Shown here: positions 1 through 4,466 of the stretch, piece by piece
Numbering within the stretch: the first letter of the stretch is position 1
Layout: each line of letters begins with the position of its first letter
Source of the DNA: an uncultured Actinomycetes bacterium
Lineage (GTDB): Bacteria > Actinomycetota > Actinomycetes > Nanopelagicales > Nanopelagicaceae
Direction of reading: 5' to 3'
Length of the DNA: 64,000 bases
Assembly (NCBI GenBank): GCA_937876245.1
Contig: CALEGP010000004.1
Span: forward strand, 1 to 64,000
Notes under the pieces: model-generated
Seen by the model: the letters and a program-made list of their open reading frames with translations, nothing else
What the model was told of the DNA's origin: nothing
The model's database searches: none
Translations under genes and position numbers: made by a program

Positions 1-72
1 AGCAGGAGTTGGTGGGCCAGCAGGAGTTCCTTGGCCAGCAGGAGTTGGTGGGCCACCAGGAGGGCCCTCCGC
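1..72. repeat. 18-nt tandem repeat inside the secreted protein gene
   Basis: Three consecutive 18-nt units (1-18, 19-36, 37-54) of the form AGCAGGAGTTGGTGGGCC, the middle one varied, followed by a degenerate fourth at 55-72. Each encodes six residues in the minus-strand gene (GPPTPA type). The array touches the window edge, so the copy number is unknown. Such arrays can vary in length by slippage. Confidence 0.8.
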
Positions 73-180
73 ATACCCTGGTGAAGCTAAATTAATTGTT
101 GTTGCAGTAAAAGCCATTATTAAAACTGTGCTGACTCGCTGCCTTCTAGCGACACCTACCTTGTTAAATAGAGCGTCCAT
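1..180 (-). CDS. Secreted proline/glycine-rich repeat protein, 5' part only
   Basis: The first 60 codons of a gene that runs off the left edge. The start is the ATG at 180-178, preceded by a strong ribosome binding site (GGAGGTG, about 4 nt upstream). The protein starts MDALFNKVGVARRQRVS, then has a hydrophobic stretch (VLIMAFTATTINLAS) and a plausible signal peptidase site near PGYA, so it is very likely exported. After that comes a low-complexity stretch rich in Gly, Pro, Thr and Ala (GPPTPA, GQGTPA, GPPTPA) built from an 18-nt DNA repeat. I do not recognise the family. The rest, including any folded domain, lies outside the window. Surface or cell-wall exposure is an inference from the signal and the Pro-rich spacer. 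Confidence 0.75.
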   Translation of the reverse strand, partial: MDALFNKVGVARRQRVSTVLIMAFTATTINLASPGYAEGPPGGPPTPAGQGTPAGPPTPA

Positions 181-231: not shown

Positions 232-416
232 GGCACCCTAATTATCATTAGAGTATTGTTTTAGACAGTACCCCTCATTCTTGAAAAAGGGAAGAAAAAT
301 CAGGGATTACTTTTCAGATACCAGGGTCTTTACTTGGAAGCTTCCGCCAGTCCCTTAACCAAAATTCTTAGTAGAAACGACAGTGAGCGTGAAAGTTAAC
401 AACCCGGGGTCTGTTC

Positions 417-436
417 TAGTCCAATGGCAGAGACAG
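417..436 (+). repeat. 20-nt inverted partial copy of the neighbouring tRNA
   Basis: TAGTCCAATGGCAGAGACAG on the plus strand is identical to bases 8-27 of the tRNA encoded on the minus strand (genomic 651-670). A shorter collinear match follows at 508-516 (AAATCCTTC, as in the tRNA anticodon arm). Acceptor and T arms are not present, so this is a relic or mimic and not a second functional tRNA. Confidence 0.7.
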
Positions 437-578
437 TTGGAGCGCGAGCTTTGCTCGAGCGCAGATGCTCTGGGCTGAGATGTATCGAGGATCAGAGCAT
501 CGCCTTCAAATCCTTCACGGCAAATATGTATGCATTTATGTATGCACTGCAAAATAAATGCTGGAATATTTTTACTAA

Positions 579-598
579 GTGCGAGATACTTTACGCAC
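579..598 (-). terminator. Weak hairpin downstream of the tRNA
   Basis: On the minus strand, immediately after the tRNA, GTGCG and CGCAC form a 5-bp stem with a 10-nt loop, followed by an A/T-rich run rather than a clean U tract. It could stop or process the tRNA precursor. Evidence is only the dyad and its position. Confidence 0.3.
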
Positions 599-601
599 AG
601 C

Positions 602-677
602 TGGTGCCCCCGGTCGGACTCGAACCGACACTGGAAGGATTTTAAGTCCTCTGTCTCTGCCATTGGACTACGGGGGC
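602..677 (-). tRNA. tRNA with anticodon UAA (Leu), short variable arm, CCA encoded
   Basis: Cloverleaf on the minus strand. The acceptor GCCCCCG pairs fully with CGGGGGC, discriminator is A and CCA is encoded (602-604). The D arm is GTCC...AGAC, and the anticodon stem-loop is GAGGA-CTTAAAA-TCCTT with anticodon UAA. The variable region is five bases (CCAGT) and the T arm is GTCGG-TTCGAGT-CCGAC. UAA reads the leucine codon UUA. Bacterial leucine tRNAs normally carry a long variable arm, which is clearly missing here. The short form may be shared by some other actinobacteria; I cannot check that. Confidence 0.85.
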
Positions 678-761
678 GAAAGTAGTGAGAGCAGTCTACT
701 AGGCGCAAATGGTTCCAACTTCCACGTGATCTTGCTACCTAAACCAAATTCGGCGCGCGAC

Positions 762-767
762 TAGAAT
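762..767 (+). promoter_or_regulatory. -10 element TAGAAT of a leaderless transcript
   Basis: TAGAAT ends exactly 6 nt before the ATG of the GNAT gene at 774 and there is no Shine-Dalgarno sequence, so transcription probably starts at or next to the start codon. Confidence 0.5.
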
Positions 768-773
768 CTGTCA

Positions 774-1484
774 ATGAGTACTGAGGTAAAAATTGTTCCG
801 TTGGTTTCTATAAAGGAGCAAAATTTTGCTCGGAACGTATTTGATTCGGTTTGGCCAATGGCCGTTGGAACGGAAATAACATCCAACTTAATGCAAGCGA
901 TGGTCCATAACGGAGCATATTTATCTGGCGCCTTTTTAGGTGACGAATGCATCGGCGCATCTTTTTCTTTCCCTGGAACCACAAATGGGTTGCATCTTCA
1001 CTCCCATATGACTGCCGTTCTAGGAAAGTTTAGGAACCGAGGAATTGGATACGCACTCAAGATTGACCAATGGCACTGGGCCAAGGAAAATAATTATAAG
1101 GAAATCACTTGGACTTTCGATCCTTTGGTTAGACGAAATGCAAAACTTAATCTGCTCAAACTAGCTGTTGATATATCTGCCTACCATACAAATTTCTATG
1201 GCCCAATGGCCGATGCTTTGAATGCAGGCGATGAAACAGATCGTGTTGTGGCAAGTTGGGCGGTCTTCGGCGAAGAACCTATCTCAAGAAATGCAATTTT
1301 GGATCCGCACAGTACAGACATTCTTATTTCAATCCCCGAAGATATTGTGGCTATTAGAGAGCAAGATATGAAAGAAAGCTTAAAATGGCGGCACAAAGTC
1401 AGAGAGCAATTTGTAGAATCTTTAGCAAATGGCGGCAAGGTCATTGGTTTTTCCAAAAATAATGAATATGTTGTGAGAATATGA
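774..1484 (+). CDS. GNAT-superfamily acetyltransferase (COG3375-like)
   Basis: A 236-residue protein. The central part (GKFRNRGIGYALKIDQWHWA, about residues 84-103) has the acetyl-CoA-binding pattern of GNAT enzymes (R-x-x-G-I-G-x-A). The following segment with TWTFDPLVRRNAKLN resembles a subgroup of predicted acetyltransferases that is often encoded beside N-acylamino-acid racemase/MenC-type enolase-superfamily proteins. That is the arrangement here: its stop overlaps the start of the next gene by 4 nt (ATGA type), so the two are probably translationally coupled. A pathway in which one enzyme acylates an amino acid and the partner acts on the N-acyl product is plausible but is inference. The substrate cannot be read from the sequence. 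Confidence 0.75.
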   Translation: MSTEVKIVPLVSIKEQNFARNVFDSVWPMAVGTEITSNLMQAMVHNGAYLSGAFLGDECIGASFSFPGTTNGLHLHSHMTAVLGKFRNRGIGYALKIDQWHWAKENNYKEITWTFDPLVRRNAKLNLLKLAVDISAYHTNFYGPMADALNAGDETDRVVASWAVFGEEPISRNAILDPHSTDILISIPEDIVAIREQDMKESLKWRHKVREQFVESLANGGKVIGFSKNNEYVVRI

Positions 1485-2581
1485 AACTAAAAGAAATTGA
1501 ACTTCGCAGAATACACATCCCACTGGTTCGACCATTTAGGACATCATTTAGTACGCAAACATCCCGAGAAGTTCTTCTCGTAAAAGTCACAAATGAAAAT
1601 GGAACCGTTGGTTGGTCAGAATGTGTGGCCATGTCCGAACCTCTTTATTCCCCTGAATATGTCGCAGGTTGCCAAGACATGATGAAGAGATTTTTAATCC
1701 CTGCTCTTAGAGATAAATTGGATTTAACTGCTGAGGATGTGCCAATCATTTTGAAACCATTTTTGGGTTGGCAGATGACAAAGGCGGCTCTTGAAACGGC
1801 AGTTCTAGATGCCCAACTTCGAGATAGGAATGTCTCGCTAGCCACTTATTTAGGTGCGACTAAAAGCAAGGTGGCGTGCGGGGTATCGGTTGGGATAGCC
1901 AATAATTTAACCGAACTTGCCGAAGAGGTTAAATCCTATGTCGATGCTGGATATCGCCGTATTAAATTGAAAATTCAACCCGGATGGGACATTGAAGCAG
2001 TTAAAACCATTCGCGAGCTATATCCCAAAATAGCGCTTCAGGTAGATGCAAATCAGGCCTATTCTAGAAGTGACTCTGGGCGCTTAGGAAAATTAGATCA
2101 ATTCGATTTATTACTAATTGAACAACCGTTGGATGAGCACGATATTTTGGGGCACGCGCTCTTGGCTAAAGAAATTAAGACACCAGTCTGTTTGGATGAA
2201 TCGATAACTTCGCTTCGATCAGCCGAAGATGCGCTAGAACTTAAGGCAACGTCTGTCATCAATATAAAACCTGGCCGCGTGGGTGGCTATATTGAATCAG
2301 TAAAGATCCATAATTTATGTGTTGGCAGAAATATTCCAGTTTGGTGTGGCGGAATGCTTGAAACGGGAATCGGAAGAGCGGCGAACTTGGCACTTGCAGC
2401 TCTGCCTGGATTTATTTTGCCAGGTGACACATCAGCATCTTCTCGCTACTTTAAAAAGGACATCACCATGCCTTTTATAATGGAGGATGGATACTTAAAT
2501 GTTCCAACTGGGGCCGGGATAGGCGTAACTCCCGATATGGATTATCTAAACGAAATTACAATCGATAAGGAAGTTATCTAA
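1481..2581 (+). CDS. menC: Enolase-superfamily enzyme: o-succinylbenzoate synthase / N-acylamino acid racemase
   Basis: 366 residues with the full muconate-lactonizing-enzyme fold signature: general base pair K162-x-K164 (RIKLKIQPGWD), metal ligands D189 (LQVDANQAY), E214 (LLIEQPLD) and D239 (VCLDESI), and the second catalytic lysine K263 (INIKPGRVGG). This residue set is typical of MenC (dehydrates SHCHC to o-succinylbenzoate in menaquinone synthesis) and of the promiscuous N-acylamino acid racemases. The GNAT partner upstream favours an N-acylamino acid role, whereas a menaquinone role would fit the cytochrome bd and NDH-2 genes in this window. No other men gene is seen nearby. The gene converges on mscS with 4 bp between the stop codons. 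Confidence 0.8.
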   Translation: MKLKEIELRRIHIPLVRPFRTSFSTQTSREVLLVKVTNENGTVGWSECVAMSEPLYSPEYVAGCQDMMKRFLIPALRDKLDLTAEDVPIILKPFLGWQMTKAALETAVLDAQLRDRNVSLATYLGATKSKVACGVSVGIANNLTELAEEVKSYVDAGYRRIKLKIQPGWDIEAVKTIRELYPKIALQVDANQAYSRSDSGRLGKLDQFDLLLIEQPLDEHDILGHALLAKEIKTPVCLDESITSLRSAEDALELKATSVINIKPGRVGGYIESVKIHNLCVGRNIPVWCGGMLETGIGRAANLALAALPGFILPGDTSASSRYFKKDITMPFIMEDGYLNVPTGAGIGVTPDMDYLNEITIDKEVI

Positions 2582-2585
2582 ATTT

Positions 2586-3446
2586 CTACTCTGGTTTCTT
2601 GCTTTCGCGTTTCCACACCGTGAGTTGAGGGAATGGGAATTCGATCTCGGCTTCATCGAATCGCTCTTTGACTAAGAACCTCAATTTTCTGGCCATTTCC
2701 CACTGTTTACCTGCCTGGACTCTTGCTACCACTCTGAAATCTATTGAACTATCCGCGAGTTTCTCGACTCCAAGTAATTCTGGAAAATCTATTAAGAATT
2801 CTTTAACATCTGGAAGATTTGAGTATTCGGTCAAGATTTCCATAATAGTTTTTTGAACATACTTTAAATCACTTTCATAGGCAACACTTATATCCAAGAT
2901 CATGCGCGACCATTCTTGGCTCTTGTTAGCCACGCGCTCGATTGAACCATTGGGAATATGCCAAAGAGTTCCATCTAGTGACCGAATCCGCGTACTTTTC
3001 AGACTAATTGACTCCACAACACCGACAGCTTCCCCTGCGTCAATAACGTCACCAACGCCATATTGATCTTCGGCAAGATTGGAAATTCCAGCAATAAAAT
3101 CTTTCACCAGCGTTTGCGCACCAAATCCGATAGCAACACCAAAAACGCTTGCTCCAGCGAGAAGTGGCGCCAAATTAATTTGTGCGAAATCAAGTAATAT
3201 CAAAAAAGCAATTACTGTAATAAAAATAGTGACAACGGAGTTAGAAACTGCTGAAAGCGCATCGGCTCTCTGATTAATTCTTTTGTCATAACTAGAACTT
3301 TCTTGATTAGCATCTCTAAGTTGTAACACGCGCACAATGAATTTTCGCATAATCATCTTAATGAGCTTTATGGCTACAAAGGCGCCAATAAAGACAGCTG
3401 CTGATTTACCTAAAAGAAACCAAAGATCACTACTGTTTAAATCCAT
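2586..3446 (-). CDS. Small-conductance mechanosensitive channel, MscS family
   Basis: 286 residues. One N-terminal membrane segment (WFLLGKSAAVFIGAFVAIK), two more around residues 70-125 ending in the pore-lining helix (LLAGASVFGVAIGFGAQTLV, Gly/Ala-rich, as TM3 of MscS), then the beta domain (YGVGDVIDAGEAVGVVESIS) and a cytoplasmic alpha/beta domain. It would release solutes during hypo-osmotic shock. The start codon at 3446 has no Shine-Dalgarno but a TAACAT box exactly 6 nt upstream, indicating a leaderless message. The length is typical of a minimal MscS. Confidence 0.88.
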   Translation of the reverse strand: MDLNSSDLWFLLGKSAAVFIGAFVAIKLIKMIMRKFIVRVLQLRDANQESSSYDKRINQRADALSAVSNSVVTIFITVIAFLILLDFAQINLAPLLAGASVFGVAIGFGAQTLVKDFIAGISNLAEDQYGVGDVIDAGEAVGVVESISLKSTRIRSLDGTLWHIPNGSIERVANKSQEWSRMILDISVAYESDLKYVQKTIMEILTEYSNLPDVKEFLIDFPELLGVEKLADSSIDFRVVARVQAGKQWEMARKLRFLVKERFDEAEIEFPFPQLTVWKRESKKPE

Positions 3447-3452
3447 ATTCTT

Positions 3453-3458
3453 ATGTTA
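3453..3458 (-). promoter_or_regulatory. -10 element TAACAT of a leaderless transcript (mscS)
   Basis: TAACAT on the minus strand, followed by 6 nt (AAGAAT) and then the ATG of mscS. No ribosome binding site is visible. Confidence 0.45.
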
Positions 3459-3533
3459 CATCCCGTAGGACAAATACAGAATTCGATGCACATATTTAGC
3501 GTAAGACGATAGCGCAAGACATTATTGCAATGT

Positions 3534-4466
3534 TTAAGGCTTATCACTTTCAGCTCGGCTAAGCGACCATCCCATGCCATCTAAAATATCGGATTCCGAT
3601 GCCATGAATTCATTCGCCCCGGTTGCGATCATGATCCTAGAAAGCACAAGAGAACCCGCTGCTATCACGTCAACTCGACCTGGATGCATATAACCAAGTG
3701 CGGCAATTTCCTCTCTCGACATGAGTGAGAACATTTGCGCGATTTCAAATACCTTAGTTGCTGGAATCCGAGATAAATGAATTGCATGACGATCATATTC
3801 ACTAAGTCCAAGAGCGGCTGCTGCAACTGTCGTTGCGGTCCCGGCAACTGCAATTAGAGTTTTTGCCGCTTTAAGGGGGACTGTATAGGCGGCTTCAGTG
3901 ATAGCAAGATCTATATCGATTATTGCATGCTGAATTGCCAAGGGGTCTTGTGGGGCTTTCTTAAGATGGCGCTCTGACATTCGCACACAACCAATATCAA
4001 CTGACTTTGCAAACTCTACTTCCGAGTTGCCTAAAACAAACTCAGTTGAGCCGCCGCCAATGTCAACCACAAGGAAGGGCTTCTCGGTATGCGTGAGTCC
4101 CTTAGTTGCACCAATGAAGGAGAGTTCTGCTTCTTCACTTCCAGAAATTACTTCAGGCTCTATCCCTAAAATTTCGCGCACACCATCCACAAAAAGCTCG
4201 CGGTTCTTTGCATCTCGAGTGGCCGAAGTTGCACAGAAGCGAATTTTTTCCACTCCCTTGCTTGCAATTATTTCGGCATATTTTCTTGTCGTGCTCAAAG
4301 TACGCTCTATTGCTTCTGGATCGAATTTGCCCGTCGAATCAACGCCTTGCCCCAATCTGACAATTTCCATCTCTCTCGCTAATTCTTGAAAATTTTCACC
4401 ATTGATATCGGCGATTAAAAGTCTTATGGAATTAGTTCCACAATCAATAGCAGCAACCCGACTCAT
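3534..4466 (-). CDS. ppx: Exopolyphosphatase / guanosine pentaphosphate phosphohydrolase (Ppx/GppA)
   Basis: 310 residues of the ASKHA fold. The phosphate-1 motif is at the N terminus (AAIDCGTNSIRLLIAD), the second phosphate motif is FLVVDIGGGSTEFVLG (about residues 135-150), and the adenosine-type motif is near LIAVAGTATTVAAAAL. The length corresponds to the short two-domain Ppx of actinobacteria, without the C-terminal HD-like region of E. coli Ppx. It hydrolyses terminal phosphates from polyphosphate and possibly pppGpp. Its start overlaps the DUF501 stop by 4 nt and it is the last gene of the mazG-eno-ftsB-DUF501-ppx cluster, an order conserved in actinobacteria. Confidence 0.9.
   Translation of the reverse strand: MSRVAAIDCGTNSIRLLIADINGENFQELAREMEIVRLGQGVDSTGKFDPEAIERTLSTTRKYAEIIASKGVEKIRFCATSATRDAKNRELFVDGVREILGIEPEVISGSEEAELSFIGATKGLTHTEKPFLVVDIGGGSTEFVLGNSEVEFAKSVDIGCVRMSERHLKKAPQDPLAIQHAIIDIDLAITEAAYTVPLKAAKTLIAVAGTATTVAAAALGLSEYDRHAIHLSRIPATKVFEIAQMFSLMSREEIAALGYMHPGRVDVIAAGSLVLSRIMIATGANEFMASESDILDGMGWSLSRAESDKP

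Follow-up and report, generated by a model that had tools for sequence, protein, structure and literature searches.

Split inverted copy of a tRNA(UAA) gene at the probable end of tyrosine-integrase elements and single-gene cassettes of Nanopelagicaceae, a possible attachment-site module

RESULTS

Features at the start of the contig

The DNA analyzed here (the window, a stretch of 64,000 nucleotides) begins with base 1 of contig C4, which belongs to a 1.5-Mb genome (G000) of the actinobacterial family Nanopelagicaceae. Its first 677 positions contain the following features.

1..180, minus strand: 5' end of a gene truncated at the contig start, with a signal-peptide-like N terminus and repeats rich in proline and glycine
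380..402, minus strand: conserved upstream part of the probable promoter of the downstream gene (alignment)
417..436, plus strand: tRNA mimic, 5' half (20 nt, inverted orientation; acceptor/D-arm/anticodon-stem side)
442..462, plus strand: small hairpin P3, with a GAGC-TTT-GCTC core at 446-456 (98.5% of cells paired, nearly invariant)
464..501, plus strand: large hairpin P4, 464-473 pairing with 492-501, with a conserved internal loop and a covarying stem
504..516, plus strand: tRNA mimic, 3' half (anticodon loop and 3' side of the anticodon stem, anticodon altered)
526..534, plus strand: direct repeat ATGTATGCA, first copy, probable integrase arm-type site of the P' arm (homologous pairs in relatives)
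538..546, plus strand: direct repeat ATGTATGCA, second copy, probable integrase arm-type site of the P' arm (homologous pairs in relatives)
590..598, plus strand: conserved TTTACGCAC near the tRNA 3' end (alignment)
602..677, minus strand: tRNA(UAA) of class I shape, the attachment gene of the element (ARAGORN; Rfam tRNA, 60.1 bits)

The minus-strand tRNA has the anticodon TAA. Positions 417-436 are a plus-strand copy of this tRNA, complementary to 651-670 over 20 nt (100%), as a sequence-only reading of this DNA had claimed. A second, collinear match, which that reading had placed at 508-516, is borne out as an exact 9-nt part of a longer one: 504-516 reads CTTCAAATCCTTC, and the corresponding tRNA piece at 634-646 reads CTTAAAATCCTTC (13 nt, 12/13 identical, 92%). 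Two hairpins lie between the halves of this mimic, and both the stem-loop (442-462) and the inverted repeat (464-471/494-501) previously described there are present. The longest match of the tRNA to the adjacent 601 nt of the plus strand is 20 nt, which is far above chance, since 300 first-order Markov sequences of that region gave matches of 6 to 12 nt, with 12 nt reached in one of them. None of the three other tRNAs of the window has an inverted copy of at least 12 nt. The term "tRNA mimic" is apt as a description, since it reproduces the tRNA 5' half together with the 3' side of the anticodon arm; a search of 410-525 for a cloverleaf with T arm and acceptor 3' strand returned no tRNA with either ARAGORN or Rfam.

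The tRNAs called as Leu(UAA) (602-677) and, in the same genome, Leu(CAA) (L170, 203-276) have a short variable region. Bacterial tRNA-Leu usually has a long variable arm. Comparable class I tRNAs with TAA or CAA anticodons were found in other actinobacterial families. In the window, an acetyltransferase gene, an enolase-superfamily gene, and an MscS-type channel gene (677-3534) separate the tRNA from a Ppx/GppA gene, which it adjoins in most relatives; the 5' side of the tRNA is thus rearranged here too.

The gene at 1-180 corresponds in position and direction to the secreted cargo genes of relatives, and its 60 amino acids had no Pfam match. Its signal-peptide-like N terminus is followed by 18-bp tandem repeats rich in proline and glycine, and a long secreted protein of the relative G254 begins with a similar N terminus. 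A -35-like TTGTTA is found at 402-397; the relatives contain TTGTTA, a spacing of 16 to 18 nt, and TATATA, TATCTG, or TATATG, and a sigma-70 consensus scan of the window found no site. The promoter block at 380-402 also precedes other cassette genes, with copies in G010, G019, G162, G280, and G281. Positions 380-405 had been considered as an att core, a candidate that was dropped as they belong to this block.

Distribution of the segment among relatives

The segment was retrieved by DNA search from 24 of 296 genomes of the family (freshwater "Ca. Planktophila" and relatives) and from 26 of the 296 with a covariance model built in this analysis. Among 297 sampled genomes of the class, only members of the same family contained it, and no match was obtained in phages, plasmids, or IMG/VR. 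Its hosts are Ca. Planktophila, including Ca. Planktophila lacus (G153), and freshwater Actinobacteria. Ca. Planktophila lacus MMS-21-148 is a strain with the segment. Every full-length copy immediately follows the 3' end of this tRNA and is inverted in the same way, and TTTACGCAC is common to nearly all copies as well as to some cassette ends without arms. Most relatives keep the tRNA without the segment, and in several complete Planktophila genomes the next chromosomal gene directly follows the tRNA. Several genomes (G247, G262, G300, and G009) retain only parts of the segment.

Integrative elements at the tRNA

The complete genome G284 contains, in this order, the intact tRNA, the segment, cargo genes, a helix-turn-helix gene, a tyrosine integrase (Pfam Phage_integrase, 3e-25), and a displaced tRNA 3' half. 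Direct repeats of 49 bp, equivalent to the tRNA 3' half, lie 7,905 bp apart and delimit a 7.9-kb element with the integrase beside one repeat and the segment beside the other. In the window, the part that is repeated at element ends in relatives corresponds to about 605-652, that is, the tRNA 3' half from the anticodon stem. Genome G285 has the exact empty site for this element, with flanks that are 95.5% and 100% identical; the segment is absent from it, which indicates that the segment moves with the element.

Two direct repeats, 11 to 12 bp apart, are located between the tRNA and the segment. In G284, G022, and G004, the same repeats recur beyond the core, next to the integrase, with a motif that varies in step on the two sides (ATGCATACA in G284, TGGATACA in G022 and G004). 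Paired repeats that flank a core are the arrangement of arm-type sites of lambda-type integrases, and by this analogy the repeats are probably integrase arm-type sites. In the window, such repeats are present on the P' side only, between the tRNA and the segment.

When the G284 integrase was used as a query against 28 genomes, clear relatives were found at this tRNA in four of them (43 to 100% identity), and a fifth, distant match (27%) was located elsewhere. All four elements at this tRNA with such a related integrase (G284, G022, G004, and G162) carry the segment or a divergent form of it. The proteins contain Phage_integrase and SAM-like N-terminal domains according to Pfam, the only domain search run. 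On the integrase side, the elements of G022 and G004 (L037 and L036) contain a complete tRNA with a promoter of its own; on the chromosome side, they leave a tRNA copy that is shortened at its 3' end. Many segment copies have lost the integrase, and no relative of the G284 integrase was found in G000, so that the copy in the window may be nonautonomous or a remnant.

The 3' half of the tRNA(UAA) gene is thus the insertion target of elements and cassettes in freshwater Nanopelagicaceae. Positions 380-601 very probably correspond to the tRNA-proximal end (attL, P' arm) of such tyrosine-integrase elements or nonautonomous single-gene cassettes, judging from sequence similarity. The copy in the window has neither a far end nor an integrase, the remainder of the element being located past the contig start, so that this assignment is based on homology between 380-601 and complete elements in other genomes. 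Read from the tRNA, the end consists of a conserved spacer, two arm-type-like repeats, the mimic 3' half, two hairpins, and the mimic 5' half, beyond which follow a promoter and the start of a secreted-protein cargo gene. None of the context that explains the segment (arm-type repeats, repeats of the tRNA 3' half, a tyrosine integrase, and cassette arrays) is visible from the window alone.

Single-gene cassettes and their junctions

A unit of 1,363 bp in G171 comprises a tRNA 3' half, the arms, the segment, the promoter, one secreted protease-like gene, and the next tRNA 3' half. This single-gene cassette lacks an integrase, and behind it a further unit of the same kind begins, again with the segment. 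In G216, several genes are parted by tRNA 3' fragments; in its array of secreted-protein genes (L095/L096, G216:C17:85673-91700), one of the intervening fragments is the last quarter of the tRNA only. A tRNA 3' half begins a few bases past the cargo stop codon in G002, G171, and G162, and in G281 that position is taken by a copy of the mimic 5' half and the promoter of the next gene. Where a copy of the segment is partial, the break is at P3, between the tRNA-like halves, and cassette junctions and rearrangement breakpoints are found there too. These junctions could have arisen by homologous recombination among the repeated ends of cassettes.

The products of several cargo genes have the C-terminal peptide CPxGYKKK. 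In L067, L111, L136, and others, PKCPxGYKKK stands right before the stop codon of otherwise different secreted proteins; this shared C terminus could be a sorting or surface signal.

The mimic follows the tRNA of its own genome

About 20 genomes have the mimic, which is more strictly conserved than its surroundings and tracks the local tRNA allele. Among 17 relatives, 12 to 21 of the 21 positions of the 5' half are identical to the tRNA of the same genome. In total, 315 of 357 positions agree with the own tRNA versus a mean of 305 with the tRNAs of other genomes (P = 0.004, permutation), and for the 3' half the values are 199 of 221 versus 191 (0 of 5,000 permutations, P < 0.0002), in tests that ignore the relatedness of the genomes. 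There are only two main tRNA alleles, and the fit is therefore confounded by shared ancestry. In G284, the hairpin class differs from that of the other genomes with its tRNA allele, and both mimic halves follow the tRNA.

The UAA anticodon is kept in none of the 17 mimics: where the tRNA has CTTAAAA, they read CTTCAAA (12 sequences), CTTGAAA (3), CTGAAAA (1), or CTTGGAA (1). Conservation within the mimic is strongest in the D-arm rather than in the few bases that flank the crossover, where CAGAGGA of the tRNA is replaced by CAGTTGGAG or CAGATGGAG in several members. The 5' half extends to near the first base of the tRNA in G216 and G284.

A covarying hairpin on the plus strand

Covariation was analyzed in an alignment of 17 sequences. 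In P4, five pairs were changed on both sides and 94% of the cells were paired. Read on the plus strand, these cells amount to 167 Watson-Crick pairs, 25 G-U pairs, and no A-C pair, indicating that it is the plus strand that folds, as RNA or as single-stranded DNA. The internal loop of P4 is conserved and contains tandem G-A. P3 is nearly invariant and thus provides little evidence from covariation. A stem around the D-arm (P2) is confined to one subtype and absent in G022 and G004, and a closing stem (P1) that looked good by eye failed a permutation test (P = 0.35) and was rejected. Between the same two tRNA-like halves, G022 and G004 have two unrelated hairpins; the layout is thus kept and the hairpin sequences are not. 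A search of Rfam 15 at a permissive threshold returned only the tRNA and a spurious antisense match, and no RNA family for the segment.

The sequence-only reading had called the segment structured. This holds for the larger hairpin, which covaries, and not for folding energy: the 116-nt segment by itself folds with z scores of -0.66 and -0.27 on the two strands. Positions 410-680 on the tRNA strand gave a z score of -7, a value that the complementary tRNA copy itself produces, and the case for structure consequently comes from covariation rather than energy. The interpretation in the sequence-only reading was supported in part: the larger hairpin covaries where it is present, but most of the relatives that keep the tRNA are without the segment.

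DISCUSSION

Function of the split tRNA copy

Our leading, tentative reading, to which we give a little less than an even chance, is that the split copy is a recombination module, not an RNA or a relic. The complete statement, which combines the element end with a split copy that acts in cis as a DNA-level attachment-site module, carries the same tentative weight. It builds on the element end, the arm repeats in relatives, the empty site, the covariation, and the tandem of cassettes, all of which are established. A DNA-level function in attachment is suggested by the neighboring arm sites, by the occurrence of the segment in minimal cassettes, by junctions that fall at the split, and by the altered anticodon. 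We infer from them that the integrase binds the arms, that the hairpins are extruded, and that the module has a decoy or joining role. In such a mechanism, (i) both hairpins would extrude on the plus strand, as single-stranded DNA or as a cruciform; (ii) extrusion would join the mimic halves into a tRNA-like core that the integrase of the element could bind next to the arm sites; (iii) the altered anticodon would coincide with the position expected for the overlap region of an integrase that targets tRNA genes, permitting binding and blocking strand exchange with the real tRNA; and (iv) the module might serve as an accessory or decoy core, or as a joining site for cassettes. A D-arm that is better kept than the flank of the crossover fits poorly with core binding by an integrase, and the G-U pairs and the tandem G-A of the internal loop suit an RNA equally well. 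The wobble pairs and the strong conservation of the D-arm are compatible with an RNA, and the partial copies with a relic.

The first of these other readings is that the plus strand specifies a structured small RNA of the element. Its transcription would run away from the cargo gene, and the RNA would display the D-arm and anticodon stem of the tRNA, in copied form, on a hairpin scaffold and either titrate a tRNA-binding protein or regulate the element. We regard it as unlikely, but as a serious candidate. The covariation of P4, with its 25 G-U and no A-C pairs on the plus strand, the conserved internal loop with tandem G-A, the well-kept letters of the D-arm, and the intergenic site in mobile elements adjoining a tRNA are all compatible with such an RNA. 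Set against them are the unsupported closing stem, the missing Rfam match, and, as a weak test, the lack of a recognizable promoter or terminator; furthermore, G022 and G004 keep the layout and not the sequence, and the cassette junctions at the split are left unexplained. RNA-guided homing of the CAST or IS110-like guide type, considered on account of the 20-nt match and the scaffold-like hairpins, was dropped, since tyrosine integrases are present in the elements examined and neither a Cas nor an IS110 protein was noticed in G284.

A relic, which we consider rather improbable, would consist of the 5' half and an anticodon piece of a tRNA that was displaced or inverted by an old integration and split by later insertions; its sequence would be kept by recent common descent and gene conversion, without a present function. 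Such an origin agrees with the loss of the integrase from many copies, with the genomes (G247, G262, G300, and G009) that keep only parts of the segment, and with the extension of the 5' half nearly to the first tRNA base in G216 and G284, as a displaced half would show, but not with the covariation of P4, the stricter conservation of the mimic than of its surroundings, or the presence of two differing hairpin sets at the same place. Control of the secreted cargo gene, with the segment as a regulatory leader or upstream DNA region and the tRNA match as a by-product, appears very unlikely. The 5' mimic half and the same promoter block do precede second and third cassette genes, but these later copies lack P4 and the 3' half, the segment itself is upstream of the promoter, and the identity to the tRNA would remain unexplained.

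The sequence-only reading had pictured the segment as the 3' trailer of the tRNA precursor, as an anti-tRNA element, or as a form of this tRNA interrupted in its anticodon arm, and the perfect complementarity on the tRNA strand speaks for it. We attribute almost no probability to this explanation. Most relatives with the same tRNA are without the segment and an exact empty site exists, so that the segment is not a trailer or an interrupted form of the tRNA; as part of the tRNA gene itself, this reading is refuted by the empty sites. An anti-tRNA would need a transcript of the tRNA strand, but the wobble pairs of the covarying hairpin are found only on the opposite strand, and an RNA from the plus strand would be identical, not complementary, to the tRNA, which leaves the anti-tRNA unsupported.

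Comparison with known systems

Streamlined freshwater actinobacteria belong to the most abundant bacteria of lakes, and the exchange of their surface and secreted genes is poorly known. The end module is mobile and present in complete genomes of isolates (G284 and Ca. Planktophila lacus G153), so that this route of exchange can be tested. Were the split copy a recombination site, it would represent an integrase element with a structured imitation of its own target; were it an RNA, mobile elements would have a new kind of transcript, one imitating the D-arm of a tRNA.

Islander-type islands are genomic islands that target tRNA genes by means of tyrosine integrases (PMC4383910). The elements described here share with them the insertion in the tRNA 3' half, with a regenerated tRNA on one side and the displaced 3' half on the other, the integrase at one end, and the arm-type repeats, but differ in a P' arm that holds an inverted, split tRNA copy with two hairpins. 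We found no description of a split inverted tRNA mimic in a P' arm in the literature searched. Additive flexible genomic islands include fGI1 of Alteromonas, where a tRNA is the target of cassettes (PMC4119200), and fGI-2 of Methylophilaceae, with repeats of the last 20 bp of tRNA-Lys (PMC10872708). Common to these and our elements are tandem cassettes at one tRNA, with tRNA 3' ends repeated between them, in aquatic bacteria; unlike theirs, the cassettes described here can be as short as one gene, mostly for secreted proteins, and carry a hairpin-bearing tRNA mimic and a shared promoter block. Tycheposons are tRNA-associated elements with a tyrosine recombinase in streamlined aquatic bacteria (PMC10872708). 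They have a much larger cargo, and that article mentions no such end module. Their association with a tRNA, their tyrosine recombinase, and their streamlined aquatic hosts are shared by the elements reported here.

The GOLLD and ROOL RNAs are structured RNAs reported near tRNAs in phage-like DNA. They resemble the segment in this location, but are far larger than the segment, which has no match in Rfam.

In integrons, cassettes consist of single genes with a stop codon that abuts the joining site, and the attC hairpins are variable, structurally kept, and confined to one strand. The single-gene cassettes that abut their joining site and the structurally kept hairpins on one strand resemble this arrangement; unlike in integrons, a tRNA gene serves as the anchor and each cassette brings its own promoter, and the integrase, assigned by Pfam as Phage_integrase, may not be IntI-like. 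No attC R and L boxes (RYYYAAC/GTTRRRY) were seen at the split when the alignment was inspected by eye. It is conceivable, at a low probability, that these genomes harbor an integron-like system anchored at a tRNA, in which single-gene cassettes for secreted proteins are captured and stacked by a phage-type tyrosine integrase acting in trans on a folded single-strand joining site whose two hairpins unite the halves of the tRNA copy. If the split copy is a recombination site, it would provide a second, independent solution to cassette capture besides integrons.
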